Of a DNA stretch of 30,100 bases, positions 1 through 28,472 are shown in pieces. Where the stretch lies: the IMG/VR virus record IMGVR_UViG_3300021379_002270, positions 1-30,100 of that record; one strand, given 5' to 3'. Made by a program: the position numbers and the translations under genes. Numbering within the stretch: the stretch's first letter is position 1; every line of letters starts with the position of its first letter. The notes beneath the pieces are model-generated. The model was not told where the DNA came from and did no database searches. It saw nothing but the letters and a program-made list of their open reading frames with translations. The DNA comes from a virus.

Positions 1-1
1 T

Positions 2-157
2 CATAAGGTCTCAGACATAAGGTCTCAGACATAAGGTCTCAGACATAAGGTCTCAGACATAAGGTCTCAGACATAAGGTCTCAGACATAAGGTCTCAGAC
101 ATAAGGTCTCAGACATAAGGTCTCAGACATAAGGTCTCATACTCATAAGATCTTACC
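2..157. repeat. Tandem array of a 14-bp unit (about 11 copies)
   Basis: The unit CATAAGGTCTCAGA repeats head to tail without spacers. There are nine identical copies (2-127), a tenth with its last bases changed (128-141), and after a 2-base offset an eleventh diverged copy (144-157). The array starts at the window edge, so more copies may lie to the left. Because 14 is not a multiple of 3 and the unit contains TAA, all three + frames are stopped, and the minus strand is stopped as well, so the array is non-coding. Each unit junction contains the imperfect dyad GTCT-C-AGAC, as expected of a protein-binding iteron or operator. An origin, a regulatory array, a slippage-generated satellite or an assembly artefact are all possible. 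The function is unknown. Confidence 0.93.
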
Positions 158-194
158 CATTCCCCCCCTCAAATTATATTAAAGGAGTTTTCAA

Positions 195-275
195 ATGGCA
201 GTAAAATGGATTCACAAAAATGGTTATTCACGCCCTGATAAGAGAACCTTAAAGAAAGGTGGAAAGAAGAAATGA
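195..275 (+). CDS. Small basic peptide, 26 aa, unknown function
   Basis: This is a short ORF read directly from the sequence, starting MAVKWIHKNGY and ending in a Lys-rich tail (KKGGKKK). The start is well supported: AAAGGAG at 181-187 is a strong Shine-Dalgarno sequence seven bases before the ATG. Its TGA stop overlaps the ATG of the next small ORF (ATGA at 272-275), which suggests translational coupling. The peptide is highly basic and could bind nucleic acid, but that is inference. No family is recognised. It lies just downstream of the 14-bp repeat array. Confidence 0.6.
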   Translation: MAVKWIHKNGYSRPDKRTLKKGGKKK

Positions 276-409
276 AAAAACCTTATTGGAATTTTTGGAA
301 AGTAGTTTTAGCAGGATGGTGTATAAGGTATCCAAAGACGGTTTTCCGAATTACTTTAATACCTATTGGAATTCTTATTGCAGTAATATATAATGCGGTT
401 GTGAAATAA
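272..409 (+). CDS. Small single-pass membrane protein, 45 aa
   Basis: This ORF starts at the ATG that overlaps the stop of the 26-aa ORF (ATGA). It begins MKKPYWNFWKVVLAGW. The second half has a continuous hydrophobic stretch (ITLIPIGILIAVIYNAVV, about residues 27-44) that fits one transmembrane helix, preceded by basic residues (RYPKTVFR). A GGTGGAAAG stretch at 258-266 could serve as a ribosome-binding site. No family is recognised. Small membrane peptides of this kind are common in T4-like phages, often in early or host-interaction regions. The coupling with the upstream ORF supports it being a real gene. Confidence 0.55.
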   Translation: MKKPYWNFWKVVLAGWCIRYPKTVFRITLIPIGILIAVIYNAVVK

Positions 410-440
410 AAAAACTCACAAAAAAATTCGGAGGGAAAAA

Positions 441-650
441 ATGATCCCAAAAGGTTCAACTGAAAAGGTATATCACATTTACGCAAAAAATAAATGTTTA
501 TTTCACTCTATAAAAGAAGAAGAATTTCAAATAACTTGGAATACACTTAAAAATATGATTGATCTAATCAAAACTGATTACAATGCAGAAGATTTATCAT
601 ATGAAGAATTACTGATCAATAAGGATGTAATTTTAAATTCATCACACTAA
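441..650 (+). CDS. Hypothetical small acidic protein, 69 aa
   Basis: The ORF begins MIPKGSTEKVYHIYAKNK and has a very good ribosome-binding site (GGAGGG at 431-436) just ahead of its ATG. The central part (EEEFQITWNTLKNMIDLI) looks like an amphipathic helix, and the second half is acidic. There is no signal peptide or membrane segment. The sequence resembles small hypothetical proteins I associate with marine T4-like phages, but I cannot name a family. It is followed at once by a sigma70-type promoter for the glycosyltransferase-like gene, so it may end a short transcription unit. Confidence 0.72.
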   Translation: MIPKGSTEKVYHIYAKNKCLFHSIKEEEFQITWNTLKNMIDLIKTDYNAEDLSYEELLINKDVILNSSH

Positions 651-679
651 TTGACAGTACATATATAAACTGTTAAAAT
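651..679 (+). promoter_or_regulatory. Sigma70-type promoter upstream of the glycosyltransferase-like gene
   Basis: A perfect -35 hexamer TTGACA (651-656) is followed, after exactly 17 bases, by TAAAAT (674-679), one mismatch from the TATAAT -10 consensus. It lies between the end of the 69-aa ORF and the ATG at 703. It differs from the TATAAATA late motifs seen further on, which fits early transcription by host-type RNA polymerase. Confidence 0.6.
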
Positions 680-702
680 TGAAATGAGGTTTTATAAAAC
701 TT

Positions 703-1536
703 ATGTCAAAAGGATTTACAGTTAAAACAAATGCCCCAACAAACAAAGAACCAAATTGGGATTTTGAAGCAATTAAAGAAAGAATGAAAGGCAAGAGCAT
801 TGTATTTTGTCTACCAGGTAGAGGATGTTCATTTACATTTTTGAAATCTTTTGTTCAATTATGTTTTGATCTTGTACAAAATGGAATGAGTATTCAAATT
901 TCACAAGACTACTCATCAATGGTTAATTTTGCACGATGCAAGTGTCTTGGTGCAAATGTTCTTCGAGGACCAAAACAAATTCCTTGGGATGGTAAGTTGA
1001 ATTATGATTATCAACTATGGATTGATAGTGATATTGTATTCAACACTGAGAAGTTCTGGCAACTTTGTGATTTAGCAATACCTGAGAGTGCAGTTGTAGA
1101 GAAAACATTACAACTTGAGGATGGTACAGAACAAAGTGTAAAATCTATTGATGAAAGCAAAGGGAACGAGATTGTAGCAGGTTGGTATTGCACTGAGGAT
1201 GGTAGAACTACTTCAGTCGCACATTGGTTAGAAGAAGAAGAATTCCGTCAAAATGGTGGAGTTATGAATCATGAGACCTTAGAAAGTATCAGCAAGCGTC
1301 GTAAACCATTTACAGTTGATTACACTGGATTTGGTTGGGTTCTGATTAAAAAAGGAGTATTCGAAAACCTTGAATACCCTTGGTTTGCGCCTAAGATGCA
1401 AGTCTTTGAATCTGGATCAGTACAAGATATGTGTGGCGAAGACGTATCATTCTGTCTTGATGCAAAAGAAGCAGGATTTGAAATTTGGTGTGATCCACGT
1501 ATTCGAGTTGGTCATGAGAAGACAAGAGTAATCTGA
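703..1536 (+). CDS. Glycosyltransferase-like protein (GT-A fold, GT2-like), 277 aa
   Basis: This is probably a nucleotide-sugar-dependent glycosyltransferase or a derived relative. Two GT-A-type signatures are visible. One is the DxD-like metal-binding motif in WIDSDIVF (Asp108 and Asp110). The other is an acidic acceptor-side motif, GEDVSFCLDAKEAGF (about residues 245-259), followed by a WCDPRIRVGHEK end segment. Near the N-terminus, IVFCLPGRGCSFTFLKSF fits the first beta strand of the fold. There is no membrane segment, so it is presumably cytoplasmic. In phages such enzymes may modify DNA bases, virion proteins or host glycans, and the substrate here is unknown. TGAGG at 685-689 is a modest ribosome-binding site. 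CGT and CGA arginine codons are used freely, unlike in the structural genes downstream. The stop overlaps the next ATG (TGATG). Confidence 0.72.
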   Translation: MSKGFTVKTNAPTNKEPNWDFEAIKERMKGKSIVFCLPGRGCSFTFLKSFVQLCFDLVQNGMSIQISQDYSSMVNFARCKCLGANVLRGPKQIPWDGKLNYDYQLWIDSDIVFNTEKFWQLCDLAIPESAVVEKTLQLEDGTEQSVKSIDESKGNEIVAGWYCTEDGRTTSVAHWLEEEEFRQNGGVMNHETLESISKRRKPFTVDYTGFGWVLIKKGVFENLEYPWFAPKMQVFESGSVQDMCGEDVSFCLDAKEAGFEIWCDPRIRVGHEKTRVI

Positions 1537-1700
1537 TGATAAAATTTGATATTCTTTATAAGAATAAAAAAATTTATCAAGATCTTGATCATGAACAGTG
1601 TTGTGAAATTCTTGAAGAACTTTCATCTCAGTGTTATGATAATAATGACTTTGACATTTATGAAATTCAATTAGAGGAAATTAATTATGGCAACACGTAA
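1536..1700 (+). CDS. Hypothetical small acidic protein, 54 aa
   Basis: The ORF was read from the ATG that shares one base with the TGA stop of the glycosyltransferase-like gene (TGATG), so it is probably translationally coupled to it. The protein starts MIKFDILYKNKKIYQDLDHE and is acidic, with three cysteines (two adjacent in HEQCCEIL). Its 3' end overlaps the start of the next small gene by 14 bases and contains that gene's ribosome-binding site. No family is recognised. The phase-linked overlaps on both sides are the main argument that it is real. Confidence 0.55.
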   Translation: MIKFDILYKNKKIYQDLDHEQCCEILEELSSQCYDNNDFDIYEIQLEEINYGNT

Positions 1701-1821
1701 GACTCAACAAATCGAATCTTTACCTAAAAAAACTCTTCAAGGTTTAGGTAAGCATACTAAGTATGCAGCGACTTCTCGTAATAAAGCTAGAAAGAGATAT
1801 CGGGGACAAGGTAAAGCATGA
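1687..1821 (+). CDS. Small very basic protein, 44 aa
   Basis: The protein begins MATRKTQQIESLPKKTLQG and ends ARKRYRGQGKA. It is rich in Lys and Arg with almost no acidic residues, so it may bind nucleic acid or ribosomes (inference). The start is supported by AGAGGAAAT about seven bases upstream, inside the end of the preceding ORF. The Arg/Gly-rich tail resembles short conserved peptides of marine T4-like phages as I remember them, with no assigned function. Its stop overlaps a further ATG (ATGA at 1818-1821) that opens the interrupted ORF described next. Confidence 0.65.
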   Translation: MATRKTQQIESLPKKTLQGLGKHTKYAATSRNKARKRYRGQGKA

Positions 1822-2003
1822 TTGATGATGACACATAAGGTATTGGTGAAAATAAAATTGAACTAGACCCTGATCTACATACTGAAGATATGATTCTTCA
1901 CAAATACGTCTCCCCTGGATATTTCTGGTGTGAATATCTAGTGGGAGACCATTATAGTATAGATGATGTAAGACTTGGTTATTACATTGAGAGTTCGAAA
2001 TAA
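1818..2003 (+). pseudogene. Interrupted small ORF with an in-frame TAA at codon 7
   Basis: Starting at the ATG that overlaps the previous stop, the frame reads MIDDDT, then TAA (1836-1838). It then continues open in the same frame through GIGENKIELDPDL to the TAA at 2001-2003. The continuation contains a normal-looking peptide rich in aromatic and acidic residues (PGYFWCEYLVGDHYSIDD). Either the gene is broken by a nonsense mutation or sequencing error, or translation begins at the internal ATG at 1890 to give 37 aa, although only a weak GAAGA precedes that ATG. The acidic start followed by an acidic open frame suggests one original gene of about 61 codons. The function is unknown. Confidence 0.4.
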
Positions 2004-2006
2004 ATA
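1999..2006 (+). promoter_or_regulatory. Candidate T4-type late promoter (AATAAATA)
   Basis: AATAAATA is one base from the T4 late consensus TATAAATA recognised by the gp55-type late sigma factor. It overlaps the stop codon of the small ORF ending at 2003 and lies about 60 bases before the 81-aa gene. The position is plausible, but in such AT-rich DNA a one-mismatch motif alone is weak evidence. Confidence 0.4.
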
Positions 2007-2036
2007 TTCCTAGGGATAGAAACCCCGTAAAAAGTT

Positions 2037-2055
2037 CTGATTTGCAGTAAATCAG
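2037..2055 (+). promoter_or_regulatory. Hairpin in the leader of the 81-aa gene
   Basis: CTGATTT (2037-2043) and AAATCAG (2049-2055) are perfect inverted repeats around the 5-base loop GCAGT, giving a 7-bp stem. The right arm overlaps the only ribosome-binding-site-like sequence (CAGG, 2053-2056) ahead of the ATG at 2065, so folding could limit initiation. It is not followed by a T run, so a terminator is unlikely. Confidence 0.4.
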
Positions 2056-2064
2056 GTAAAAACA

Positions 2065-2310
2065 ATGTCAAAATCAGTAGATAGAGACAAAAATTATATG
2101 TATGAATTGTGGGGAACCACAAATTTGACCTCAGATTATGGTGTTTTTGAAAAACTTCAACAAAAAAAGATGCTTAGAGAAATTACAAACGATGATTTAA
2201 CTCCAAAAAGGCATAATTTTAAAATTCAAAACGAATTACATTCAAAAATTCGTAACGATACTGATTATGATGATTGGGAATATGGTACAGAACCAAATTA
2301 TGGAGTATAA
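2065..2310 (+). CDS. Hypothetical protein, 81 aa, upstream of gp25
   Basis: The ORF begins MSKSVDRDKNYMYELWGTTN and is charged and hydrophilic, with an acidic aromatic C-terminus (DYDDWEYGTEPNYGV). It has no membrane segment or signal peptide. It is preceded by a candidate late promoter and a hairpin that could cover its ribosome-binding site. Its stop codon is embedded in the TATAAATA late promoter of the gp25 operon. It is the last gene before the structural cluster. I do not recognise a family. Given the context it could be a small virion or assembly protein, but nothing in the sequence shows this. Confidence 0.68.
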   Translation: MSKSVDRDKNYMYELWGTTNLTSDYGVFEKLQQKKMLREITNDDLTPKRHNFKIQNELHSKIRNDTDYDDWEYGTEPNYGV

Positions 2311-2313
2311 ATA
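2306..2313 (+). promoter_or_regulatory. T4-type late promoter (TATAAATA) for the gp25-gp6 operon
   Basis: This is a perfect match to the T4 late promoter consensus TATAAATA. It overlaps the TAA stop (2308-2310) of the 81-aa gene and lies 22 bases before the gp25 ATG. It is well placed to drive gp25, gp6 and the giant tail genes late in infection. Confidence 0.75.
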
Positions 2314-2335
2314 AGGTAGTTTCCTTGGTATTTTA

Positions 2336-2737
2336 ATGCCTTCTGAAAGGGTAAGTATAGGATTTAAGGATTTAAGTATGACATTTCAGGTTAATCCCCT
2401 GAATTATGATTTAATTGCACTTAAGAATGAGAGTTCGATTGCACGTTCTATTAGAAATCTTGTACTTACCTATCCTGGAGAAAGATTTTTTAATCAAAAT
2501 CTCGGATCTAAAGTATCTAAATCATTATTTGAAAACATTGATTCTATTTCATCTAGCATTATTAGAGATGAAATTGTTAATACGATTAACAATTACGAAC
2601 CTAGAGTTAATTTAATTAATGTTGTTGTTAATCCAAATTATGATGAAAATGAATTTATTGTGACAATTTTTTATAATATCGTAGGAATTGATGTACCTGC
2701 ACAAAGATTATCATTCCCATTACAGCCAACTCGATAA
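2336..2737 (+). CDS. 25: Baseplate wedge subunit gp25
   Basis: This is a homologue of T4 gp25, the small lysozyme-like (GPW/gp25 family) protein of the baseplate wedge, which with gp6 and gp53 forms the conserved inner core and nucleates sheath assembly. The length of 133 aa is close to T4 gp25 (132 aa). The diagnostic central block is clear: IARSIRNLVLTYPGERFFNQNLGS (about residues 34-57, shown only in part by its key residues NLV-T-PGER-F--N-GS), followed by a helical segment and a beta-strand-rich end. No Shine-Dalgarno sequence is visible ahead of the ATG. The stop is directly followed by the gp6 ATG with no gap, and synteny with gp6 supports the call. Confidence 0.93.
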   Translation: MPSERVSIGFKDLSMTFQVNPLNYDLIALKNESSIARSIRNLVLTYPGERFFNQNLGSKVSKSLFENIDSISSSIIRDEIVNTINNYEPRVNLINVVVNPNYDENEFIVTIFYNIVGIDVPAQRLSFPLQPTR

Positions 2738-4658: not shown

Positions 4659-7600
4659 ATGGTAAAAACCAGAGTTCAAATTAATTCCGTTGTAGAAAAT
4701 CAAATTCCTAACTTTGTAAGGGAAGATTTTCCTTTAGTCGCAGAATTTTTAAAGGAATATTATAGATCCCAAGAAATTGATGGTTCATCTTACAATATTC
4801 TTCAAAATATTGATCAATATATTAAACTAGATAAATTAACAAATCTAATAGATTCTACTATTGTAGAAAAAGTTAATGATTCTACATATTCTATTGGATT
4901 ATTTGACAATGAAATTTATGTTTCCTCTACAGAAGGATTTCCTGATAGATATGGATTAATAAAAATTGATGATGAAATAATCACATATAAATCAAAAACT
5001 GATACTTCATTTACGGAATGTGTTCGAGGATTTAGTGGAGTAGAAAATTTAAAAGATACTAATAATCCAGAAAAATTAGTTTTTTCTGTATCAGATGCAT
5101 CTGAACATGTTTCTGGAAGTATTGTTACAAATTTATCTGTATTATTTTTACAAGAATTTTTAAATAAAATAAAAAAGCAAACATTTTATGGGTTTGAAAA
5201 TAGAAAATTAGATGATAATTTAAACCAAAATTTATTTTTAAGTAGAAGTAAGGATTTCTATACTACTAAAGGGACTGATAGATCATTTAAAATTTTATTT
5301 AAATCTTTGTATGGAGTAAATGCTGATGTTATTAAACCAAGAGATTTTTTAATACAACCCTCAGATGCACAATATAGACTGACTAGAGATCTTGTTGTAG
5401 AGGCAGTTACTGGTAATCCATTAGAATTGGTTAATAGAACATTATTTCAAGATTCAGATGGATTTATTTCTAGATCTTATGGATCAGTAACTTCTGTAGA
5501 AAAGATTACAAGATCTGGAAAAGAATACTATATTGTAAGTTTAGATTATGATTTTGACAAGGATATTAATGTTTCTGGTTCAATATTTGGAAAATTTAGT
5601 ATACATCCAAAAACCATACTAGTAAATGATGTAGATGCTTCAAAAACTATTCTTGATGTAGACTCTACTTTAGGGTTTCCTAAATCAGGAGAATTATTAA
5701 TTAAATTGAGTGATCAAAATACTTTAAAAGTAACATATACTTCAAAATCTTTAAATCAGTTTTTTGGATGTTCTGGTATAACTCAAAATATTTTATCTGG
5801 ACAAGAAATATTTTATAATGCAACTGCATATGCATTTGTTGATAAAACTAAAACAGAGAAAATAGAAGTTAGAATTGGAGGTGTTTTATCGGAACTTGAC
5901 TTGCCACCAAATACTTTTCAGTATGAAAATGGAGATAGTGCTAAAATAATTTCATTGGGATCCAATGATTCTAGTATAAAATTAAATAATTGGATATTTA
6001 ACATTCCAATTGAATATGAGGTAGAATCATTTTTATGGTTAAATTCAGTTTCCATTGGGCAACAACAACCATCAATTTATAAGCATGAAATTTTTACTTA
6101 TGATAGTAATAACATTTACAAAGGAGACAGAGTAGAAATTGATATTGTTATCAGGGATTTAAATAATCAAATTGAACCATTATCAAGACTCAAAAAGATA
6201 TTTGTCGTAGAATCAGGAACAATACCAAATAAATCATTTATTGTTAATAATGATCATGAAATAATAAAAGTTTATAGTACCAAAAAACTGATAACAAAAT
6301 CTATTAATGATTATTCTGCAAATGTTCAAAATGTATATAAAGATGATAAAGAAGTATGTTATGTTGCATCACCATCTCTTCCCGATTATTTAAGTCAAGA
6401 AATAACAACTAAAAATAGATCCATTCAATTTAGTGGAATATTTGGAAATTCTTTTGTAGGTATTAAAACTGATACTATTGTTTTTAAAGGTTCTGGTGGA
6501 TCATTAAGATCTCATGGATTCTTAACTGGTGATTCTATTGCTTATATTCCAGGGGAAGGAAACAATACATTAAGTATACCAAAGAGTACTTATTTTGTAA
6601 AAAAAATTGATGTTAATACAATAAAATTATCAACAAGTCGTGAGAATATATTAAATAATATTTTTGTAGAGTTTTATGGAAATATAACAAACAATAAACT
6701 TATTCCTTTAGAATTTGTAGATACTAATTTAAATGAAAAGGTTTTAGATTCTCAAAGACTGATTAGAAAAATTGATAATCCAAAAAATGATGGAAATGTT
6801 TATGATACAAATCCAGGGTTTATTGGCATCTTTTCTAATGGTGTAGAAATTTTAAATTACAAATCACAAGATACCATTTATCACGGAAAACTTGAAAATA
6901 TTATAGTTTCTTCTAAGGGGTCTAATTATGATGTTATTAATCCTCCTGTTTTAGAAATAACAGATTCTACTGGAACTGGTGCAGAAGGTATTTGCGCAGT
7001 AACTGGATCATTATCTAAAATAAACATTATTGATCCTGGATTTGATTATATTGAAGATCCTTCAGTTATTATTACTGGAGGAAATGGAGTTAATGCAAAA
7101 GCAAAAGCTAATCTAATTTCAGTAGATCATATATCATATTTTAATTCTGAACAAATTTCTGGCCTTGTAAATTTATCCAATAATTCTATAACTTTTGATA
7201 GTGATCACAAATTTAGAGATAATGAAAAAGTTTTCTATGTCTCAGATGATCAAAATCATGTTGGAGGTTTAATTAATAATTCAATATATTATGTTTCAAT
7301 ACAAAATTCCAGAACAGTAAAAGTACATAATACATTATCCGATTCAATATCCGGAATAAACACAGTATCATTAACATCATATGGTTCCGGAATTCATGGA
7401 TTTAAATCTTACAATAAAAAGAAAATAATAGGATCTATATCAGTTACAAATCCAGGTTTTGGATATAAAAATAAACTGATAGTTGCTAAACCAGATCAGA
7501 TTATTATTGAAAATAGTACTATTAATATTACATCTCATGGTTTTAGTAGTGGAGAAATAATAAATTATTATTATTCTTCTTCTCCTATTGGAGGATTATC

Positions 7601-10600
7601 TGAAGGACAATATGTTGTTACTAAGATTGATAATAATACATTTAAATTATCTTTGATTGGATCTTCAGATAAACTATTTTATTATAATACTAAACAATAT
7701 ATTGAATTTATTACAGTTGGCAGTGGATTGCATTATTTTAATTATCCAGATATTTCAGTTGAAATTATAGGATCTATTGGAGTATCAACTTTTTCTGGAC
7801 AAGACTTTAGAGCAAAAATTCAACCAATTTTTAGAGGATCTATTGATTCAGTATTTTTATTAAATCCCGGATCAAATTATGGTTCTCAGGAAATAGTTAA
7901 TTTAAATAGAAAACCACAATATAAATTAAAATCTGGACAAGATGCAAAACTAGAACCTATAATATCCGATGGCAAAATTGCACAGGTTCTTATTTTAAAT
8001 CCAGGAAGTAATTATAACTCTCCTCCTGATATAACAGTATATGGTTCTGGGTCTGGTGCAATTTTAACACCAATAATTGAAAATGGAAGAATAATTAGAA
8101 TTAAAATAATTAATGGTGGATTTAATTATTCTAGTAAAAATACATCTATTATTGCAAATTCTGCCGGACAAAATTGCAAGTTAAACTTTAAAATACAGTC
8201 TTGGAATATAAATTTAGTTGAAAGATTAAAATTCACAAATCAAATATCAACAAATGATGGTATTGTTTCAAATGGAATTGCTGAACAATATGGATTACAA
8301 TATTGTCATGCTTATGCTCCAAAAAGATTAAGAGAAATAGTTTTTAGTAAAAATGAAGAAGATGGAAATATTAAATATAGATCAGACTTATTAAATGATA
8401 CTTTCAATGATAACTATCATTCACCTATTATAGGATGGGCATATGATGGCAATCCAATTTACGGACCCTATGGATATGACAAAGTTGATGGAGGAAGTAT
8501 AAGACAGTTATTATCTGGATATTCCGATCCAATTGTAAAATCTGGAAGACCATCATTATCTTTATATCCATTAGGATTTTTTGTTGAAGATTATGATTTT
8601 ACTGATAATGGAGACTTAGATATTTGTAATGGAAGATTTTGCATAACTCCAGAATTTCCAAATGGCACTTATGCATATTTTATATCATTACAGGAAAATT
8701 TAATTGGTGGAGAAAAACTTCCAAAGTTTCCATATTTAATTGGAAATCAATTTAAATCAAGTCCAATAGATTTTAATTATCAAAAAGAATCCAATCAAGA
8801 TGATCTTGATATCAATGGTCTAAATTTTTTAAGAAACACTAAACCATATAATTTAAATTCTAAAAATAGTAGTTATAATTATATTATAAATTCAAATGAA
8901 ATAAAACAACAAATATCAGATGTAACTTATGCTTCTGGTGGAAAAATAGATAATATAAAAATAGTTAAACCTGGATCAAATTATCAAGTCGGTGATATTA
9001 TTTCATTAGATGATGAAAACAATGAAGGATATGGATTTTATGCCACAGTTTCTTCAGTATATGGAAAAAATGTAGAGAAAATAGAATCTAAAATTTATGA
9101 ATTAAAGAATATTGAGATTATTCCATCAAACAATACTAATGAGTACATTGCTTATGCAAATTCTCCACATGAAATAAAAAATACTGATATTGTAAGCATA
9201 AGTGGTCTTGGTACATATTTTTCATCTTTACAAAATTCCTATGAAGCAAAAGTAAGCGTTTCTACTCTTATACTTTCTTCTGAAGTCGAAGACTTATCAG
9301 TTACGGGAATAGTTACGTATTTTAATGTTTATGGAAATTTAAATTATCCAAATATCAGAGAAAATGATATCTATTCTATAGAAGGTGAAATAATTAAAGT
9401 TTTAAACATAGATACAAATTCATCTAGAATAAGAGTACTTAGGCAATCTAAAACAAAATCACATAAATCTGGAGAAATATTAACAGAAATACCAAGAAAG
9501 TTTAAATTTATTACAAGTGATCGTTTAAATTATAATTATAAAATTAATAAAGAAATTTATATAAATCCAAAAGAATCTATTTGTATTGGTACAGTTGGTG
9601 CTGGAACAACACTATCAATATCAAATCCAGGTATTGGGGCAACTGAAGTTTTTGTTCCTATACAATCAATTTATATACCAAACCATGGATTAAATACTGG
9701 AGATTTATTAAAATATTATAGAAACAATAATGAGAATATTTCAGTTTTTGATGGAACAAAAACATTTAAATTAAATCAAAATTATAACATATACGTAGCA
9801 AAATTTTCAAATGATTTGATAGGAATATCAACAAATAAAATTGGAATAGGTACAACAGGTTCTTTTGTTGGAATAAATTCAGACATTGGATTATTATATT
9901 TTACATCAACAGGTACTGGATCAAATCATAGTTTTAAAACTAAAAAGTCATCAGTAGTCTTAGCAAATGCTGATAAAAAAACTGTAACAGTAACAACATC
10001 AGAACCACACAACTTACAATTTGAAGATGATATATCAGTCGAGTGTAAACCACAAATATCAAAAACCATTAAAATAAAGTATAATTTGAAATTAAAAAGA
10101 TTAGTTGTAAATCCAACTAATTTTAATGCTATTGATATAGATTTAGATACATCTTCAATAAAAATAGATAATCATGATTATAAAACAGGAGATAAGGTAA
10201 TTTATACTTCAAATTCTCCTTCTTTAGGATTATCAAATAATAAAATTTATTTTGTTGTAGTTATTGATATCAATACAATCGCACTTTCAGAATCTTATTA
10301 CAATTCCAAATTAAATTCACCAATTACTGCAAATATTTTATCACGATCCGATGGATCTATTTCTAAAATTAATCCAGAAATTGTAGTATTTAAAAATAAT
10401 AAAATTATCTTTGATCTTTCAGATTCATCATTATCTTATACTAATGGATCTACAATTTTACCAAGTTTTAAATTTAAACTATTTAAAGATTACAATTTTA
10501 CAGATGAATTTATTAGTAGTAAATCTACTGAGAATTTTGAAGTTATTGAATATGGAATTATTGGTAAAACTGGTGCAAAGATTGAATTAAATATATCTGA

Positions 10601-13376
10601 TAATATTCCAAAAAATTTATATTACGGATTAATTCCTTTAAAAAATGTTTTAGAAGGAAATTATGCAATTAAAGATAATGAATTTATTATTAATGCAAAT
10701 AAAATAAATGTATCAGACAGTCTTTATAATGGAAAAAATAAAATTTCTAATATTACTGAAAATACATTTTCATATACTGTTAATATTAATCCAGAAGAAA
10801 CTACCTATGTTTCTGGAATTAATTATACAACAACATCTACTTCTGCATTTGGTGGTATAAGTAAAATTTCAATAAAATCTAAAGGAAATGGGTACAAAAA
10901 ACTACCAGGAATTAGTGGAGTAATAAGTAAAAATGGATCAGATGCAATACTTTTACCTCAAAGTAATAGTATTGGGAATGTAAAAACTACAAGAATAATT
11001 GATATTGGCTTTGATTATTCTTCAGATTATACCATTAGACCAACTGTAAAGTTACCTGATATATTAAAGATAGAACCTTTATCAACTTTTGATAGAATTG
11101 ATATATTATATAAAGGTAAAGGTTATGATGTTGCTCCACAATTAATAGTTCTAGATGGAGTAACTGGAGAATTGGTTGACGATGTAGTTTTAAAATACGA
11201 AGTCGATAATGATCAAGTAACTATTATTAAAAATTCTACAGGTTTTTACAATTCTGTACCATCTATTATTCCAATTAATAATCCAAATGGAGTAGGAATT
11301 AGTACAATATCATTTAATGATTTAACAAAAGAAGTAACAGTCACTTTAAGTAAACAATTTAGTGATGTTGAAGATTTTCCGTTTATAATCGGAGACAAAA
11401 TCTTTGTAGAAAATGTTAGCATTATTGAAGGTACTGGTATTGGATACAACTCTTCAGATTATAATTACTCATATTTCACAGTTACTGATATTGATAAAAA
11501 TATTGGTGGAGACGGATCTAAAATTATTTTTAGTCTTATAGGATTATTGAAAAATATATCTCAACCAGGAATTTTTAATTTTTCAGAATCTTTTGGAAAA
11601 GTAATACCTGTTAGAGATTTTCCAATTTTTAACGCTATTTTAAAGAAAAATCAATTTTTCAATAGAGAAGAAGTATATGCGGAAGATTCAAATGGAATAG
11701 TAGAAAAATGGGATTCTCAAAATGAATATTTAAAAGTTGAAACAGTTGATTTATTTAAATCTGGAACATTGATTAAAGGAAAATCATCAGGTTCTCAAGG
11801 ATTTATTTCTTCCGTAAATGAATTTAAAACAACATATTCAATAGATTCAACTTCAATAGTTAAAAAAGGTTGGAATAAAGAGACTGGATTTTTAAATAAT
11901 ACCAATCAAAGAATTCATGATAATGATTATTACCAATATTTTTCATATTCTATAAAATCTCCAATTTCTTATGATGATTGGAATGATAAAGTAAGTACTT
12001 TAAATCATGCTTCTGGATTTAAAAAATTTAGTGACCTTATTGTTGAATCATACGATTCTAATTATTATGGAATTAGCACCTCTCAAAATCAAGGAGATTT
12101 TACGGGAGTTTCTAATTTATCTACTATTATAGATGTTGATTGTTACAATGATTTTGATTTGGTAAGTGAAAATCTATTTAAAATTAACAACAATAATATA
12201 TCAAATGAAATAATATTCAATTCTAGAGAAATACAGGACTATTCAGAATCAATTGGAAATAAAGTTTTAAAAATTGATGATATTAGTTCTCAATTTGATC
12301 ATTTGTCTAGATTGACTCCATATACAATTGTTGATGTATTTAAATTAGATTCTGGATATTCTAGAAAGTATATTACTTACGTTAAAGACAAGAGATATAC
12401 TGATGAAAGGCAGATATTATTAGTTACTTTACTGCAAGATGATAATTATGTATATATTAATCAATATGCAAGACTTGATAGTTATGGAGATCTTGGATCA
12501 TTTGATGCAATAATTAATGGAAATGAAGTAAGTCTACTATTTTATCCAAACAAATATGAATTTAATGATTATGATATATCTTTTGTAAATTATACATTAA
12601 AACAAATAAATTCTGGTATTGGTTCAACTTCATTTGGAGACGTTGCAACTATTATTTCTAATCAGTATTATGTACAACCTGATTCAAATCAAACGATAGT
12701 TTCTTTACCAACATCATATAGATCTGCGAAAGTTTTAGTTGAGTTTGTTGGAGATGATGGAAAATTTGAATTTGATGAATTTACAATTCTTCATGATAAT
12801 TTTAATGTAGATTTATTGGAATATGGACAATTAACTAATACATTTACATCACTTTCTTCTTCAGGATTTGGAACATATTATCCAAGAATTTCAGGATCAG
12901 ATATTTTAATTGATTATATACCATCACTATCTGGTGTAGGAGTAAGTATAACAACTTTAGTTACAGCACTAAATTCTAATGGATTTACTTCAGGTAGTCA
13001 ATCTATAGATAATGCAATATTAAGTTCTTCATATACAGGAATTTCATCTGAAACAGAACCAATTCCAAATACAGTTGCAATTTATGATAGTGCAGAATAT
13101 GATTCTGCTTATTATACTGTAACTATAGAAGATATTACTAATGGAGAATATCAAACACAAGAAATAGTGGTAATTAATGATTCTTTAAACACATATATTT
13201 CTGACTATGCAATTTTACAATCAAATAATACACTAGGATCTTTTAGTGTAAATAGTACAGTAAATGATTTAATAGAACTACAATTTACACCAATTCCTGA
13301 TATTGAAACTGAAGTTAGAGTATTTCAAAATGCTTTAAAATTAATAAGTGCAGAAACAACACCTATAGAAATTTAA
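4659..13376 (+). CDS. 7: Giant gp7-like baseplate wedge protein with YHYH domain, 2905 aa
   Basis: This ORF fills the gp7 slot between gp6 and gp8. Residues 195-219 (SRSKDFYTTKG, then SFK-LFK-LYG) closely match a block I remember from the last third of T4 gp7 (SRSYDFYSTKG, then SYKFLFKVLY). The preceding helical part (FVREDFPLVAEFLKEYYRSQ) also fits. Order: gp7-like domain, about 1-330; two 'epitope-turn' modules near 85-130 and 328-375; many beta modules of the types G-x-GY and HGF-x-GD from about 610 to 2170; a YHYH domain around 1253-1330 (NYHSPIIGWAYDGNPIYGPY, then ICNGRFCITPEFPNGTYAYF); a C-terminal triplication at about 2567-2896. It is almost three times the length of T4 gp7 (1032 aa). 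It probably starts wedge assembly through its N-terminus and projects a long modular arm. There is no clear Shine-Dalgarno sequence. The gp7 assignment rests on motif memory and synteny. Confidence 0.78.
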   Translation: MVKTRVQINSVVENQIPNFVREDFPLVAEFLKEYYRSQEIDGSSYNILQNIDQYIKLDKLTNLIDSTIVEKVNDSTYSIGLFDNEIYVSSTEGFPDRYGLIKIDDEIITYKSKTDTSFTECVRGFSGVENLKDTNNPEKLVFSVSDASEHVSGSIVTNLSVLFLQEFLNKIKKQTFYGFENRKLDDNLNQNLFLSRSKDFYTTKGTDRSFKILFKSLYGVNADVIKPRDFLIQPSDAQYRLTRDLVVEAVTGNPLELVNRTLFQDSDGFISRSYGSVTSVEKITRSGKEYYIVSLDYDFDKDINVSGSIFGKFSIHPKTILVNDVDASKTILDVDSTLGFPKSGELLIKLSDQNTLKVTYTSKSLNQFFGCSGITQNILSGQEIFYNATAYAFVDKTKTEKIEVRIGGVLSELDLPPNTFQYENGDSAKIISLGSNDSSIKLNNWIFNIPIEYEVESFLWLNSVSIGQQQPSIYKHEIFTYDSNNIYKGDRVEIDIVIRDLNNQIEPLSRLKKIFVVESGTIPNKSFIVNNDHEIIKVYSTKKLITKSINDYSANVQNVYKDDKEVCYVASPSLPDYLSQEITTKNRSIQFSGIFGNSFVGIKTDTIVFKGSGGSLRSHGFLTGDSIAYIPGEGNNTLSIPKSTYFVKKIDVNTIKLSTSRENILNNIFVEFYGNITNNKLIPLEFVDTNLNEKVLDSQRLIRKIDNPKNDGNVYDTNPGFIGIFSNGVEILNYKSQDTIYHGKLENIIVSSKGSNYDVINPPVLEITDSTGTGAEGICAVTGSLSKINIIDPGFDYIEDPSVIITGGNGVNAKAKANLISVDHISYFNSEQISGLVNLSNNSITFDSDHKFRDNEKVFYVSDDQNHVGGLINNSIYYVSIQNSRTVKVHNTLSDSISGINTVSLTSYGSGIHGFKSYNKKKIIGSISVTNPGFGYKNKLIVAKPDQIIIENSTINITSHGFSSGEIINYYYSSSPIGGLSEGQYVVTKIDNNTFKLSLIGSSDKLFYYNTKQYIEFITVGSGLHYFNYPDISVEIIGSIGVSTFSGQDFRAKIQPIFRGSIDSVFLLNPGSNYGSQEIVNLNRKPQYKLKSGQDAKLEPIISDGKIAQVLILNPGSNYNSPPDITVYGSGSGAILTPIIENGRIIRIKIINGGFNYSSKNTSIIANSAGQNCKLNFKIQSWNINLVERLKFTNQISTNDGIVSNGIAEQYGLQYCHAYAPKRLREIVFSKNEEDGNIKYRSDLLNDTFNDNYHSPIIGWAYDGNPIYGPYGYDKVDGGSIRQLLSGYSDPIVKSGRPSLSLYPLGFFVEDYDFTDNGDLDICNGRFCITPEFPNGTYAYFISLQENLIGGEKLPKFPYLIGNQFKSSPIDFNYQKESNQDDLDINGLNFLRNTKPYNLNSKNSSYNYIINSNEIKQQISDVTYASGGKIDNIKIVKPGSNYQVGDIISLDDENNEGYGFYATVSSVYGKNVEKIESKIYELKNIEIIPSNNTNEYIAYANSPHEIKNTDIVSISGLGTYFSSLQNSYEAKVSVSTLILSSEVEDLSVTGIVTYFNVYGNLNYPNIRENDIYSIEGEIIKVLNIDTNSSRIRVLRQSKTKSHKSGEILTEIPRKFKFITSDRLNYNYKINKEIYINPKESICIGTVGAGTTLSISNPGIGATEVFVPIQSIYIPNHGLNTGDLLKYYRNNNENISVFDGTKTFKLNQNYNIYVAKFSNDLIGISTNKIGIGTTGSFVGINSDIGLLYFTSTGTGSNHSFKTKKSSVVLANADKKTVTVTTSEPHNLQFEDDISVECKPQISKTIKIKYNLKLKRLVVNPTNFNAIDIDLDTSSIKIDNHDYKTGDKVIYTSNSPSLGLSNNKIYFVVVIDINTIALSESYYNSKLNSPITANILSRSDGSISKINPEIVVFKNNKIIFDLSDSSLSYTNGSTILPSFKFKLFKDYNFTDEFISSKSTENFEVIEYGIIGKTGAKIELNISDNIPKNLYYGLIPLKNVLEGNYAIKDNEFIINANKINVSDSLYNGKNKISNITENTFSYTVNINPEETTYVSGINYTTTSTSAFGGISKISIKSKGNGYKKLPGISGVISKNGSDAILLPQSNSIGNVKTTRIIDIGFDYSSDYTIRPTVKLPDILKIEPLSTFDRIDILYKGKGYDVAPQLIVLDGVTGELVDDVVLKYEVDNDQVTIIKNSTGFYNSVPSIIPINNPNGVGISTISFNDLTKEVTVTLSKQFSDVEDFPFIIGDKIFVENVSIIEGTGIGYNSSDYNYSYFTVTDIDKNIGGDGSKIIFSLIGLLKNISQPGIFNFSESFGKVIPVRDFPIFNAILKKNQFFNREEVYAEDSNGIVEKWDSQNEYLKVETVDLFKSGTLIKGKSSGSQGFISSVNEFKTTYSIDSTSIVKKGWNKETGFLNNTNQRIHDNDYYQYFSYSIKSPISYDDWNDKVSTLNHASGFKKFSDLIVESYDSNYYGISTSQNQGDFTGVSNLSTIIDVDCYNDFDLVSENLFKINNNNISNEIIFNSREIQDYSESIGNKVLKIDDISSQFDHLSRLTPYTIVDVFKLDSGYSRKYITYVKDKRYTDERQILLVTLLQDDNYVYINQYARLDSYGDLGSFDAIINGNEVSLLFYPNKYEFNDYDISFVNYTLKQINSGIGSTSFGDVATIISNQYYVQPDSNQTIVSLPTSYRSAKVLVEFVGDDGKFEFDEFTILHDNFNVDLLEYGQLTNTFTSLSSSGFGTYYPRISGSDILIDYIPSLSGVGVSITTLVTALNSNGFTSGSQSIDNAILSSSYTGISSETEPIPNTVAIYDSAEYDSAYYTVTIEDITNGEYQTQEIVVINDSLNTYISDYAILQSNNTLGSFSVNSTVNDLIELQFTPIPDIETEVRVFQNALKLISAETTPIEI

Positions 13377-18084: not shown

Positions 18085-21000
18085 ATGCCTCAGGAAACTA
18101 ATTTAAATGTATCTCCTTATTTTGACGACTTTAATTCTAACAAGAATTTCTATAGAGTATTATTTAAACCTGGATATCCAATTCAGGCTAGAGAACTAAC
18201 AACAACTCAATCAATTTTACAAAATCAAATTGAACAATTTGGAAATCATGTTTTCAAAGAAGGGTCAATTGTTATTCCTGGGCAATTAAATTATAATAAC
18301 CAATTTTATTCTGTAAAAATTGAAAGCGAATTTGCCGGAATTCCAGTAAATTTTTATGCGCAAGAATTAGTTGGTAAAACTATAAAAGGCAATATTAGTA
18401 AAATTAGAGCAAAAATCATTCATGTAATAGATGAAGGAGATTTAGATAACGAATATATTACATTATTTGTAAATTACTTAGGATCTGGTATTTCGGGAGA
18501 ATCTACATTTCTTGACGGAGAAACTTTAATTTTAGAAGAGACCTTTGTTAAAGAATCCGTTTTAATACAATCAGGTCAAGGATTTTGCAATACAGTCTCT
18601 ATAAATTCTACTTCAGTTGGTTCTGCAGTAATTTTATCGGAAGGTGTATATTTTATTAGAGGTACTTTTGTAAATGTTCCTAGTCAAATTTTAATTCTGG
18701 ATCCATATTTAAATACTCCATCATATCAAGTTGGATTTACTGTAGTAGAAGAGATTATAACTGCAGATGAAGATATTTCTCTGTCAGATAATGCACAAGG
18801 ATACTCAAACTATGCTGCACCTGGTGCAGATAGACTTAAAATTAGTGCAATTTTAACAAAAAAACCATTAGATAGTTTAAATAACGAGAGTTTTATAAAT
18901 CTTCTTGATATTAGACAAGGAGTTTTAATATCATCAAAAACTAGACCACAATATTCAGTAATTCAAGAAGAGATTGCAAGAAGAACATCTGAAGAATCCG
19001 GTGACTATTATGTTACTCCATTTACATTAACTCCAAAAGAAAGTTTAAATAACGATCTTGGTAATGGTGGTATTTTTCGTGAAGGTCAAGTAACTTATAA
19101 TGGAAATATTCCAAGTGAATCTTTAGCCACATATAAAATTTCACCTGGAAAAGCATATATTAAAGGAAGAGAAGTAGAGATACCAACAACTGTATTTTTA
19201 GATTTTCCAAAACCAAGAACAATAAAAACTCAAAAAAATCAAAGAGTAGTATATAGCACAGGATCTACATATACAGTAAATAGAGTGTATGGAGCACCAA
19301 ATTTAAGTTTAAAATCTCCATTTATTGTAAGTCTTAGAGATTCTAGAGTAGGAACTTCACAAATACTAGGATCTGGTAAAGAAATTGGACTTGCTAGAGT
19401 ATACGATTTTGCTTTAGAGTCTGGTTCATATAATACATCAAATTTAAATCTTAATCAATGGGATTTATCTCTATTTGATATTCAAACATATACTGAAATA
19501 GAATTAAATGAACCCATTACATTAAACACTCCTGTTCAAATTAAAGGGAAATCTAGCGGAGCTACTGCATACCTTAGATATGATGTTTCTAATTCAGGAA
19601 TTTTAACAGCATATAATATTAATGGTAAATTTTCTATTGGCGAAAAATTTGTATTTAATGGTGTAGAAAATGATAGTAGAATTGCAAAAGTAGTAACTGA
19701 ATATACAAACAAAGATGTAAAATCAATCTGCCAGGTTGGAACATCATCTACGGTGTTTAGTGGTGATGTAATTCCATCTTTAGAAACATTTATTGGATTT
19801 GCTAATATTACAACTAAAGATGTTTCTACTGGTATAAGCACAGTATCTATTCCAGATTCATCTGATATAATATTTACAAATATAATTAAAATTGGTTCAT
19901 TAGTTGGATATACTAAACCATCAGAAACTATACCAACATATTCTATTGTAGAATCTGTATCTGAAAAATCTTTAACAATTAGTGGGATTACTACAGTATC
20001 TGGTATAAATGAAGGTTCTTTACCGATTTCTGATGTTTCGGTAAATGATTTTGCTATTTTAGCATCAAAGTTTCAACAATCATTTGATAACGCACTATTT
20101 ACAATTTTACCAAAACCTTTCATTTCATCTGTAGATTTAAATAATTCAAGTTTAGTAATTAAGAAAGAATTTTCTATTACAATTACTAGTAATCAATCTA
20201 GCACTGTTACTGCAGATGCTAATGAGACATTCTTACCTTTTGATGAAGAAAGATATATTTTAATTAGATCTGATGGATCATTTGAAGTTTTAACTCAGGA
20301 TAAGTTTGTATTTACAAATGGTTCAAAAGAACTGACTATTTTTGGTTTGGGTTCTAATGATGCTGAAGCAAGATTAATTGCAACATTATCAAAAGAAAAA
20401 ATTACCCATAAAATAAAAAATAAAAATAGAATTAATTCCATCATTATTGATAAATCTACAAATCCACAGTCTGGTATTGGATCAACTACATCAAATGATG
20501 GTTTAGTGTATGGTAATTATCCATATGGAACTAGAGTACAAGATGAAGAACTATGTTTATTAGTTCCAGATATAACTAAAGTTTATGGTATTTTAGAATC
20601 TAGTGGTACAAGTGATCCTATTTTACCATCAATTAATTTTAATTCCATTAATAGTCCAACAAATACTACTAATGATCTATTGGTGGGAGAAGAATTTATT
20701 GGTAAAAGTAGTGGGGCTGTTTGTGTATATGTTAAAAAGAAAAATGATCTAAGCATAGAATTCACATACTTAACAGATAAAAAATTACAAGAAGGTGAAA
20801 TAATATTATTTAAAGATTCTGGAATAACTGCAACTATTGGCACTCTAACATTTGGAGATAAAAATATTATTTCAGATTTCCAATTTGATTATGGACAAAA
20901 AGATACAATTTATGATTATGCAAAATTAAGAAGAAATACAAATACAAAAGCACCAACAAGAAGAATACGAGTTATTTTTGAAAATGCTTCATGTTCTGCA

Positions 21001-24000
21001 TCTGATGATGGAGATATTACAACAATAAATTCATATAATCAATTTGATTATTGTACTATTACTTTTGCTAGGGAAAACGTTAATAATGGCGATATTATTG
21101 ATGTAAGACCAAAAGTTTCCAATTATACTGTAAGTGAGTCTAGTTCAAGATCTCCATTTGAGTTTTTAGGTAGATCATTTAGTCAGGTATCAAATAGTGC
21201 TAAAAATATTTTAGCATCAGATGAATCTTTAGTAGTAGATTATTCTTATTATTTACCAAGAATTGATAGAATTTTCTTAACAAATGAAGGTGTATTTCAA
21301 CTAAATCAAGGTGATCCATCAGAAATTCCACAACCACCTGCTGGAGTTGATGATGCTTTAGAAATAGCATCTATTTCATTACCAGCATACCTATGCGATG
21401 CTTCTAAAGTAACAATTAAATTAATGAATCATAAACGATATCAAATGAAAGATATCGGAAAACTTGAAGATAGAATTAAGAGTTTAGAATCAATAACTAC
21501 TTTAAATCTACTAGAAACTAACACAGAAAACTTAAAAGTCAAAGATGCAAATGGTCTTGATAGATTTAAGTCTGGATTTTTTGTTGATGATTTTACATCA
21601 ACATCATCTCAAAATAAATCTGGTATAGTAAAGAATTCAATTGACCCATCTCTTGGTGAATTGAGACCTGCTCCGTTCACAACAGAAATTGATTTACAAA
21701 TAGGATCAAAATCTTTAGTTGGAATTGGAACATCTGCAGATCCAACTAAAGATCCTAGATTTGTAACAGACTTGGTTGGTAATAATATTAGAAGAACTGG
21801 TCAATTAGTAACACTTGAGTATGAAGATGTAGTTAAAGTTCAAAATCTTTTTGCAACAAGAACTGAGAATGTAACTCCTTTTTTGATTACTCGATATAAC
21901 GGAACAATCGAATTATTCCCTTCATCAGATACCTGGACAGATCAAGTTAGAACTGATGCAAAACGAGTAGAAATTGACAATTATACAGAAACAGAGCAGC
22001 AATTAATTGCTCAAGGATGGGATCCTCAAACTGGTTATAGTCCAGTAACTTGGGGTGCATGGGAGACTACTTGGACTGGATCTAGCACCACATATGAAAG
22101 TTATAATAATTATCATTATGGTCATTATGGATATTGGGGTTATCCTTACTATTATGGATATTGGAATTATCCTTACTATTATGGATATTGGGGTCGTAAA
22201 TATTGGTGGAATTATGGATATGGATATTATTACTGGGGATATCCTTGGTATTACAATTATAGCACTACAACAATTGCAACTACAACAAATACTGGAATCG
22301 AAACCAGAGAGGGCACTCAGTTTAAATTAAGTGAAAAAATTGACACATTCTCTCAGGGAGATTCTATTATTGCTACAGATTTCATTTCTTATATGAGATC
22401 TAGAAATATAGAATTTACTGGAAAAAGATTTAAACCATTAACACAAGTATATGCATTCTTTGATGGAGAAGATGTTAGTTCATATATTATACCAAAACTA
22501 TTAGAGATCTCTATGATTTCTGGGACATTTGAGGTTGGTGAAACAGTAATCGGAACCATGTTGAATTCATCTACAAATGAAAATCCAGTTTCTGGAGAAG
22601 TATTAAATCAATTTGTATGTAGATTAGCAACATCTAATCATAGATATGGCCCATACAATGAACCAACTGATATCTTTATTACAAATCCATATAATTCAGA
22701 GTCAACAACCAATTTACCATCAGATTATTCTTCCACTTCAGAAATTCTTAATATAGATACATACTCTTTATCTGAGCAAGCACAGGGTGATTTCTATGGA
22801 TATATTCAAACTGGTATGATTTTAAGAGGACAATCTAGTGGTGCAGAAGCAACAATTACAAATATTAGATTGTTTACTGATAGTGTAGGAACCATCATTG
22901 GTTCATTCTTTATTCCTAATCCTAATGTACCATCAAATCCGACATTTGAAACTGGAACAAAAACATTTAGATTAACTAGTAGTTCTGTAAATTCATTAAT
23001 TGATGGTATTACAACAACTAGTGCTGAAGAAAATTATTATGCCCAAGGAATATTAAATACAATTCAAGAAACTATAGTATCTGTTAGAAGTGCTAGAATT
23101 GAATCCGAAACTTTAACTGAAAGTAAAGATATTTCAGAAACAACTACATCTACATCAACTGCAATAAAAAATATTTGGGGAAATACTATTCGTACCTATG
23201 CTAATGGTGAGTTTGGTTATTGTTATTGGGATCCTCTTGCACAATCATTCTTCGTATCCGAAAAAGGTGGAGTATATATTACTAAGGTAGATCTATTTTT
23301 TAGAACAAAAGATGTAGAAACACCAGTAGTAGTCCAACTTCGTCCAATGTCAAATGGTGTACCAAAGACAGACGTGCATCCATTTAGTGAGGTAGTTGTT
23401 GAACCAAAAGATATTAATTTGTCTGAGGATGGATCGGTATCTACAACAATTACATTCCCATCTCCAGTATATTTAAAAGGTGACTCTGAACATGCTTTAG
23501 TATTGCTTTCACAATCAAATGAATATAATGTTTGGATTTCTAGATTAGGAGAAATTGATGTCACAACACAGAATCTACCAGAGTCTCAACAAGTAGTTGT
23601 TACCCAACAACCACTTTTAGGATCTTTATTTAAATCTCAAAATGGTTCTACATGGGATCCAAGTCAATATGAAGATTTGAAATTTATACTTTACAAGGCA
23701 AAGTTCTCTACTCAATCAGGTGATTTTAATTTTTATAACCCAATATTAAATGTTGGTAATAAGCAAGTTGCAAACTTACTTATAAATCCACTACTCTTTA
23801 ATTCTAAAAAAATTAAAGTATCATTATCATCTACTATTACGGATTCTAATTTGAAATTTGGAAATACTATAGTACAGCAAGGTTCTAATGCCAGTGGTAA
23901 TTATGTTGGCGTTGCTGGATCTGCATTTGGAACACTTAATGTTATTAATAGTGGTATTGGATACTCTGATGGATATTATACAAATGTTCCATTAATTAAT

Positions 24001-27008: not shown

Positions 27009-28472
27009 ATGTTAAATCCATTTTTTCTCCAAGGATCTAAGTCAGAACAAAATTTAATACAAGATTTAGTAAATGAACATCTAAAAATATATGGTGTTGA
27101 TGTATACTATCTTCCAAGACGTTATGTTACTGAAAAAACAGTTATAAAAGAAGTAATAGAATCAGAATTTTCAAATGCTTTTCCTATTGAAGCTTACTTA
27201 GACACATATGAGGGATATTCTGGACAAGGAACAATTTTATCAAAATTTGGAATTCAAGAACTTGACGATTTAGTATTAATAATATCAAAAGAAAGATATG
27301 AAAATTATATTGAACCATTAATAAAAAATATACCAGATATAAAATTATCAGATAGACCTAAAGAAGGAGATTTAATCTATTTTCCTTTAGGAGACAAATT
27401 ATTTGAAATTAAATATGTTGAGCATGAAAAACCTTTTTATCAACTACAAAAAAATTATGTTTATGAGTTAAGATGTGAACTCTTTAGATATGGTGATGAA
27501 ATTGTTGATACTAGTATTGATTTTATTGATGATAATACATCAGAGGAAGGATATATTCAAACATTACAAATGGTTGGATTTGGATCAACAGCTTCTGCAA
27601 TAACTTCGATTGTTAGTGGTGGAGTTACATATGTTTCAGTTACAAACAGGGGATCTGGATATACATCTACACCATCTGTTATATTTTCTTTACCTTTACA
27701 ACCAGTACCACCATCAATAATACCTCCAAATGAAAAATCTAGAGCTACAGGAATAGCTACAATGATTTCTGGAATTGTGGATTTGTGTGAAACTGATTCG
27801 AATTTATTAAGAGTTCAAGGTGTAAATATTATAAACCCAGGATTTGGATACACTACACCACCTATGGTCAATTTTATTGGAGGTGGAGGATCTGGTGCTG
27901 AAGCAAAATCTTATATTGGTGATGGTGTTGTTGGAATCATAACGGTTACTGATGGTGGAAGTGGGTACTCTACTCCTCCATTAGTAACTTTTTCTTCTCC
28001 TGGAATTGGAACTACAGCACTAACAATAACAGCTACTGGATATGCCTCAATTAATTCTTCAGGATCAGTTACTGGAATATATCTAACTAATTCTGGATTA
28101 GGATATACAGTTTCACCTACAATTACAATTTCAAGTCCACAAACAATAGTTGGATCTGGATCATACTTATTTAATGAAACTGTGGTTGGATCATCAAGTG
28201 GAGTAACCGCAAGGGTTAAATCTTGGGATATTGTTAAAAATATTTTAGAAGTTTCAAATATTGATGGAATTTTTACTCCAGGAGAAATTTTAGTTGGTCA
28301 AAAATCTGGTTCAAATTACTTATTAAAAACTGTTTTTACAGATAACCTTTCAGATAACCTTTCAAATGACAATTATAATGGAAAAGATAAATATGCCGAT
28401 AACAATCAAATAGAAATAGAGTCAGATTTAATATTGGATTTTAGTGAAAAAAATCCTTTTGGAACACCTTAA
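27009..28472 (+). CDS. 14: Neck protein gp14 with long beta-repeat C-terminal extension, 487 aa
   Basis: The first 190 residues or so are a T4 gp14-type neck protein: MLNPFFLQGSKSEQNLIQDL, VYYLPRRYVTEKTV, and the distinctive YVYELRCELFRYGDE (about 150-164). T4 gp14 has 256 aa, whereas this one has 487. The extra C-terminal part contains four or five G-x-GY repeats (NRGSGYTSTPSV, NPGFGYTTPPMV, DGGSGYSTPPLV, NSGLGYTVSPTI; about 198-377). An SSG module follows (VVGSSSGVTARVKSWD, about 391-406), then a polar tail with a 12-bp tandem duplication (NLSDNLSN). The same modules occur in the tail proteins upstream, so the neck may be decorated with them. The start lacks a clear Shine-Dalgarno sequence. 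Confidence 0.9.
   Translation: MLNPFFLQGSKSEQNLIQDLVNEHLKIYGVDVYYLPRRYVTEKTVIKEVIESEFSNAFPIEAYLDTYEGYSGQGTILSKFGIQELDDLVLIISKERYENYIEPLIKNIPDIKLSDRPKEGDLIYFPLGDKLFEIKYVEHEKPFYQLQKNYVYELRCELFRYGDEIVDTSIDFIDDNTSEEGYIQTLQMVGFGSTASAITSIVSGGVTYVSVTNRGSGYTSTPSVIFSLPLQPVPPSIIPPNEKSRATGIATMISGIVDLCETDSNLLRVQGVNIINPGFGYTTPPMVNFIGGGGSGAEAKSYIGDGVVGIITVTDGGSGYSTPPLVTFSSPGIGTTALTITATGYASINSSGSVTGIYLTNSGLGYTVSPTITISSPQTIVGSGSYLFNETVVGSSSGVTARVKSWDIVKNILEVSNIDGIFTPGEILVGQKSGSNYLLKTVFTDNLSDNLSNDNYNGKDKYADNNQIEIESDLILDFSEKNPFGTP

Follow-up and report, generated by a model that had tools for sequence, protein, structure and literature searches.

Does the short tandem array that opens this cyanophage contig serve replication, regulation or recombination, or is it a satellite that grew by slippage? 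The window, by which we mean the whole stretch of DNA analysed, is an entire virus record of 30,100 bases. It begins with nine perfect copies of the 14-bp unit CATAAGGTCTCAGA at 2-127 (starting at 2, 16, 30, 44, 58, 72, 86, 100 and 114), followed by a tenth unit with a single change (CATAAGGTCTCATA, 128-141) and by an eleventh, diverged copy, which a CT at 142-143 places 2 bp out of phase (Table 1). A unit-by-unit check thus agrees with the nine perfect and two diverged copies described in an earlier, sequence-only reading of this DNA, and Tandem Repeats Finder returned 2-139 with period 14, 9.9 copies and 100% matches. That reading had the copies follow one another without spacers, which is correct for copies 1-10 but not for the eleventh, because of its shift in phase; GGTCTC, placed by it in every copy, is present in each of copies 1-10. 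Stops occur in each of the six frames within bases 1-160, so the array is noncoding, as had been stated, and a coding repeat is rejected. The GC content of 0.42, against 0.28 for the whole window, likewise bears out the statement that the array is GC-richer than its surroundings.

A CRISPR array was rejected, as the units abut without unique spacers, and so was restriction-site avoidance, because outside the array the window has 5 GGTCTC/GAGACC sites where 2.6 are expected. Base 1 of the window is a T, as is the base before the first unit in the second carrier described below, while another copy would give an A. The left border of the array may therefore sit just inside the contig, in which case the window array would be one of ten copies, although a single terminal base is thin evidence for this. 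The off-phase copy, here called the relic, can pair as RNA with the last unit, and this stem is predicted in the folds of both carriers.

Table 1. Features at the left end of the window and the evidence for each (positions in the window).
Feature	Position	Strand	Evidence or remark
Tandem array of ten 14-bp units CATAAGGTCTCAGA in phase, nine perfect and the tenth with one change	2..141	+	
Off-phase diverged copy CATAAGATCTTACC (relic)	144..157	+	contains the perfect palindrome TAAGATCTTA (146-155); present in L009 too
SD-like site AAGGAG, now beside the orf26 start codon	182..187	+	sequence; identical in L009
orf26, 26-aa frame MAVKWIHKNGYSRPDKRTLKKGGKKK	195..275	+	matched by tblastn in 11 of 84 sequences, counting the window and L009
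orf45, conserved 45-aa frame	272..409	+	matched by tblastn in 46 of 84 sequences, counting the window and L009
phrog_2626 conserved small protein, function unassigned	441..650	+	E 7.5e-16
phrog_1574 protein, function unassigned, weakly glycosyltransferase-like	703..1536	+	query for finding relatives
gp25 (baseplate wedge), the first gene behind the array recognised as a tail gene	2336..2737	+	PF04965, E 3.1e-13

Two scans of IMG/VR, one with a pair of abutting units and one with a relaxed version of that pair, each returned a single contig, L009 (11,540 bases). Over 10,343 bp it shares 98.6% identity with the window, and we therefore take it as the same virus species. Its array comprises seven units at 1233-1330, and since these lie inside the contig, the array is no artefact of a contig end, a candidate that is accordingly rejected. 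The third unit of L009 has a C to A change, the last carries the same change as the tenth of the window, and the relic behind them is the same in both; further 3', L009 lacks nine bases. Copy number varies, as ten and seven units occur in near-identical genomes, with the reservation that these are two genomes only and that short-read assembly may misjudge such counts. No exact match to a nearly two-unit pattern was found in the GTDB contigs, which leaves the window and L009 as the two known arrays of this unit.

The leftward extension beyond the window edge that had been proposed for this locus is provided by L009, whose left flank is syntenic with relatives. This GC-rich flank (L009:1-1232) has no DNA match among phage records at E 1e-5, and a 128-aa frame within it has distant protein matches, the best to Synechococcus phage S-CBS4 (38.8% identity, E 2e-13). 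Elsewhere in the two genomes, the 2905-aa frame of the window (4659-13376) is interrupted in L009 at 7181-8807, with separate frames at 5838-7181 and 8807-11539, perhaps through an assembly error or a frame shift.

The genes behind the array form a tail-baseplate region of cyanophage type, and 169 phage records are DNA relatives of window positions 140-2340, every one of them with Synechococcus, Prochlorococcus, cyanophage or "marine" in its name. The phrog_1574 protein as query retrieved at least 80 relatives, and the 420 bases upstream were read in 17 of them, plus L009. A noncoding element with CTAACCTACA lies in this stretch in 15 of the 17 (in L016 the preceding CCC is absent), and in L014 and L030 it sits further upstream. 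In relatives the element is followed by an AT-rich leader, mostly with TTTCCGGAG, an SD-like site, or a similar sequence, and orf26 homologues begin right behind an ancestral CCGGAG site. The order element, CCGGAG, orf26 ATG is found in L029, L075, L061, L057 and L034, with the ATG within ~10 bases of the site. In L009 the order is element (ACTACCCTAACCTACACTGTATGTCTTTTTCGACC), leader (CATAAAAAATTTCCGGAGGTAAATAAGAACCTT), array, relic, AAGGAG and orf26, with the element ~65 bp before the array.

The array is thus placed between the ancestral SD-like CCGGAG site and an orf26 start codon that has its own AAGGAG. Because it splits the ancestral site from orf26, it is most likely part of an untranslated 5' leader, as far as gene order and sequence can indicate. 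Neither orf26 nor orf45 has a match in Pfam or PHROG. A strong sigma-70-like site (TTGACA, 17 bp, TAAAAT) lies before the phrog_1574 gene at window 651-679, and a scan found the identical sequence at L009:1830-1858; sigma-70-like sites as a class are no commoner in L009:1000-3300 than in shuffles (10 vs 9.7).

The distribution of the unit was compared among homologous leaders. We listed a sample of 138 leaders that are distinct in the element plus the next 100 bases and extend at least 250 bases after the element. L009 is the only one among them with the 14-bp unit, and no other reaches four copies. The absence of a like array from close relatives other than the same-species L009 argues against a conserved function, and we regard the array as lineage-specific on these comparisons. 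Tandem repeats with a Tandem Repeats Finder score of at least 50 occur in 11 of the 138 listed leaders and in 7 of 119 upstream stretches of 400 bases and, thus counted, are not clearly commoner in leaders than upstream. The short duplications in the leaders of L065, L156, L159 and L185 are unrelated in sequence to the 14-bp unit. Among the 6- to 8-mers of 125 leaders (L009 not counted), CCGGAG, TATATAA and TATCACAT are enriched but the unit is not, its AAGGTCTC being present in one leader of the 125. The left edge of the array with the preceding leader aligns to single-copy DNA in L041 and L178 (84% over 38 nt) and in L065 (81%, 37 nt). This suggests growth in place, although the alignments are short, confined to the left edge and largely made up of generic leader before the array.

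Among the four options raised by the sequence-only reading, an iteron-type origin, an operator array, a recombination hotspot and a slippage satellite, the last is the best supported, by the near-identical units, the ten against seven copies and the absence from 137 of the 138 listed leaders. We consider it probable that the array is a slippage-type short tandem repeat which grew in place in a noncoding leader, between the conserved, control-like element and orf26, the first small gene of the block running into the baseplate genes (the tail-leading block). Replication slippage or unequal recombination would have expanded the unit in situ, and the product would be transcribed as 5' leader RNA. 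Any effect would then be restricted to the length or structure of the leader, hence to the yield of the first small proteins, and the effect on translation would be modest at most. The modelled pairing of neighbouring units and the predicted hairpin of last unit and relic leave room for a function.

Other repeats were seen in the same material. ATTCGTGATTA recurs in L022:2403-2652, L057:2460-2691, L009:1058, L016, L020, L040 and L076; in L022 and L057 it forms arrays of 69-72-bp units, at least 700 bp or so before the element. Several relatives carry at least two copies of TGTGGAAAAG ahead of the same tail-leading block (L011:1891, L047:2733, L048:481, L085:84, L088:35 and others). The window itself has a 27-bp repeat of 2.6 copies at 22124-22194, within the 2556-aa frame 18085-25755, which encodes a stretch rich in tyrosine, glycine and tryptophan.

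The element beside the array, at L009:1152-1200 and hence left of the window, is noncoding and found across cyanomyoviruses. Its constant part is a 16-mer (ACTACCCTAACCTACA), behind which come a variable module of ~13 bases, mostly with CG at its end and seen in nine or more forms, and then an ATAT box. Its conservation is partly a product of selection, because the constant part was also the search key, while the modules behind that part were not selected by the search. In the 138 listed copies the modules are GAGGTGAC (65), AAGTGTTA-like (21), AAGGTTCCC-like (18), ACGAACC-like (16), CTGTATGTC-like (7, L009 included) and AAAGTGNGTAC (4), with 7 copies in all of five rarer or unclassed forms. 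A rapidly built tree of 107 non-identical phrog_1574 proteins, drawn from 165 loci with the gene after removal of element-less loci and duplicate proteins, requires 25 changes of module label, where the minimum possible is 8 and the shuffle average 46. The modules have likely been exchanged between lineages, to judge from this sequence-based tree, although the number of changes is not exact given the low support on many branches (20 of 104 starred).

A 55-nt query with the element found 322 phage records and 323 places (E up to 10), 321 of the records being named Synechococcus, Prochlorococcus or cyanophage and one "Marine"; many of these matches are partial, as 43 of the 322 records cover 80% of the query. 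Another element query gave 172 records and 172 places. In S-SM2 (GU071095.1), scanned in four stretches, a single copy within three mismatches of the 16-mer lies at 58,846, with a series of small genes on one side and the gp25 block on the other. The freshwater phage DSL-LC03 (OR003938.1 83,265-84,850, L216) has the element followed by two small genes on the + strand and then by genes on the - strand, a gene order different from the one-strand order in S-SM2.

Positions -14 to -12 of the element are always AAA and position -11 is A in 97%, and in 65 of 119 loci a TATAAA begins 17-18 bases ahead of CCC. This conservation and placement make a candidate transcription start near ACTACCC plausible. 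At the place of TATAAA, L009 has the imperfect match TAATAAAAATG; the ATAT box behind the module is an alternative. For cyanomyoviruses, the accessible part of one report describes a late promoter NATAAATA and no motA or asi homologues (PMC2984593). A full-text literature search with the letters of the element returned no paper, and the accessible parts of the cyanophage and repeat literature contain no mention that we found of the 14-bp repeat or the element.

How far the array might do more than lengthen a leader depends first on its structure. The repeated units could act as RNA or as binding sites that tune downstream translation or stability, with copy number as the dial, and the array does lie between a start codon and an element that may hold a promoter. 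GUCU and AGAC of adjacent units can pair into one long imperfect stem, and window 1-195 folds at -51.2 kcal/mol (z -4.8 vs whole-sequence shuffles). Shuffling the unit and tiling it is the fairer control, however, and 164 of 1000 such sequences match or exceed this stability when dinucleotides are preserved cyclically (629 distinct), as do 245 of 1000 when composition alone is kept. The leader of L009 reaches a z of only -1.5 and the array is not conserved, so that we regard such a regulatory leader as unlikely. A known RNA family was rejected for L009:1-3300, where Rfam gave no match among 4227 families at E up to 1. Still less probable is a more elaborate version, in which the leader belongs to a master control site of cyanomyoviruses and the array serves there as a copy-number dial. 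The element, with its constant ACTACCCTAACCTACA, swappable specificity module and ATAT box, would then switch on the tail-leading block through a recognition system whose several alleles can be exchanged, and the output would be tuned by the repeat. The sequence-only reading also saw in the dyad GTCT-C-AGAC some ten identical potential protein-binding sites at 14-bp spacing. Identical units with a 4+4 dyad do exist at the junctions, but arms of at least 4 arise in 14% of 20,000 tiled unit shuffles, so that the dyad alone is not notable. Two sites with one mismatch to the 12-base core TAAGGTCTCAKA, both TAAGGTCTCATG, occur elsewhere in L009 (2449 and 7662), and none for the reversed control of this pattern. 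At least one of the two is inside a gene (2449, in that for the phrog_1574 protein), and although we take both as chance, they count slightly for an operator. The full unit recurs within three mismatches once in the window outside the array, at 27113, and nowhere in L009 outside its array. With a dyad of chance size and an array that relatives lack, operator function appears very improbable.

Readings that tie the array to replication or recombination fare worse. Tandem noncoding units close to the edge of a gene module would suit an iteron-type origin, since such origins contain short direct repeats in noncoding DNA. Against this, 137 of the 138 listed homologous leaders lack the array, and a search of Pfam and PHROGs found no initiator among six neighbouring proteins (three small frames at ~1539-2004 left out). 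Furthermore, cumulative GC skew in S-SM2 climbs over the entire record with no turn at the homologous place, although S-SM2 has no array and its mostly one-stranded genes could mask a turn. We therefore do not follow the proposal of an origin, which these observations render extremely improbable. The array does stand where variable, GC-richer DNA gives way to the AT-rich tail module, and in L009 the GC content drops across the element from 0.62 to 0.31, the largest step of 84 loci, which could suggest a recombination hotspot or a module-exchange junction made by the array itself. Upstream GC is higher, however, in 69 of the 84 loci, nearly all without the array. The array is not needed to explain the GC border, because the border goes with the conserved element, and a hotspot is accordingly highly improbable. 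The preferred reading thus remains that of a slippage-type repeat grown in place.

Known systems offer partial parallels to such a repeat. The tandem repeat regions of archaeal Borgs, as far as the accessible text describes them, are likewise noncoding head-to-tail units that are recent, independently arising and fast evolving; they differ in that there are many regions per genome, with A-rich units and flanking partial repeats, whereas the present phage has a single array, flanked on one side by an off-phase relic (PMC9879509). Repeated noncoding DNA ahead of virus genes is also known from the promoter-carrying intergenic repeats of halovirus HF2, which, in the portion of that report available, are classes of intergenic repeats of 29-58 bp rather than a single local 14-bp array (PMC8707807). 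The unit examined here, in contrast, has no promoter match. The psbA leader of S-PM2d resembles the present case as a cyanomyovirus leader with predicted structure between promoter region and gene, but according to the accessible section it is a 36-bp inverted repeat at another gene, not a tandem array (PMC5931967). From iteron-type origins the array is set apart by its lack of conservation and by the lack of an adjacent initiator among the six neighbours.

As a repeat, the array is ordinary. It indicates that slippage arrays can arise in cyanophage leaders, and its presence may account for where the contig ends. The conserved element is a more interesting lead than the array beside it. It lies where variable genes meet the structural module of cyanomyoviruses, and its several modules are mutually exclusive and apparently exchanged between lineages. 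Should it prove to be a promoter or the 5' end of an RNA, it would offer a concrete site for testing how the gene programme is controlled in phages without motA and asi homologues.
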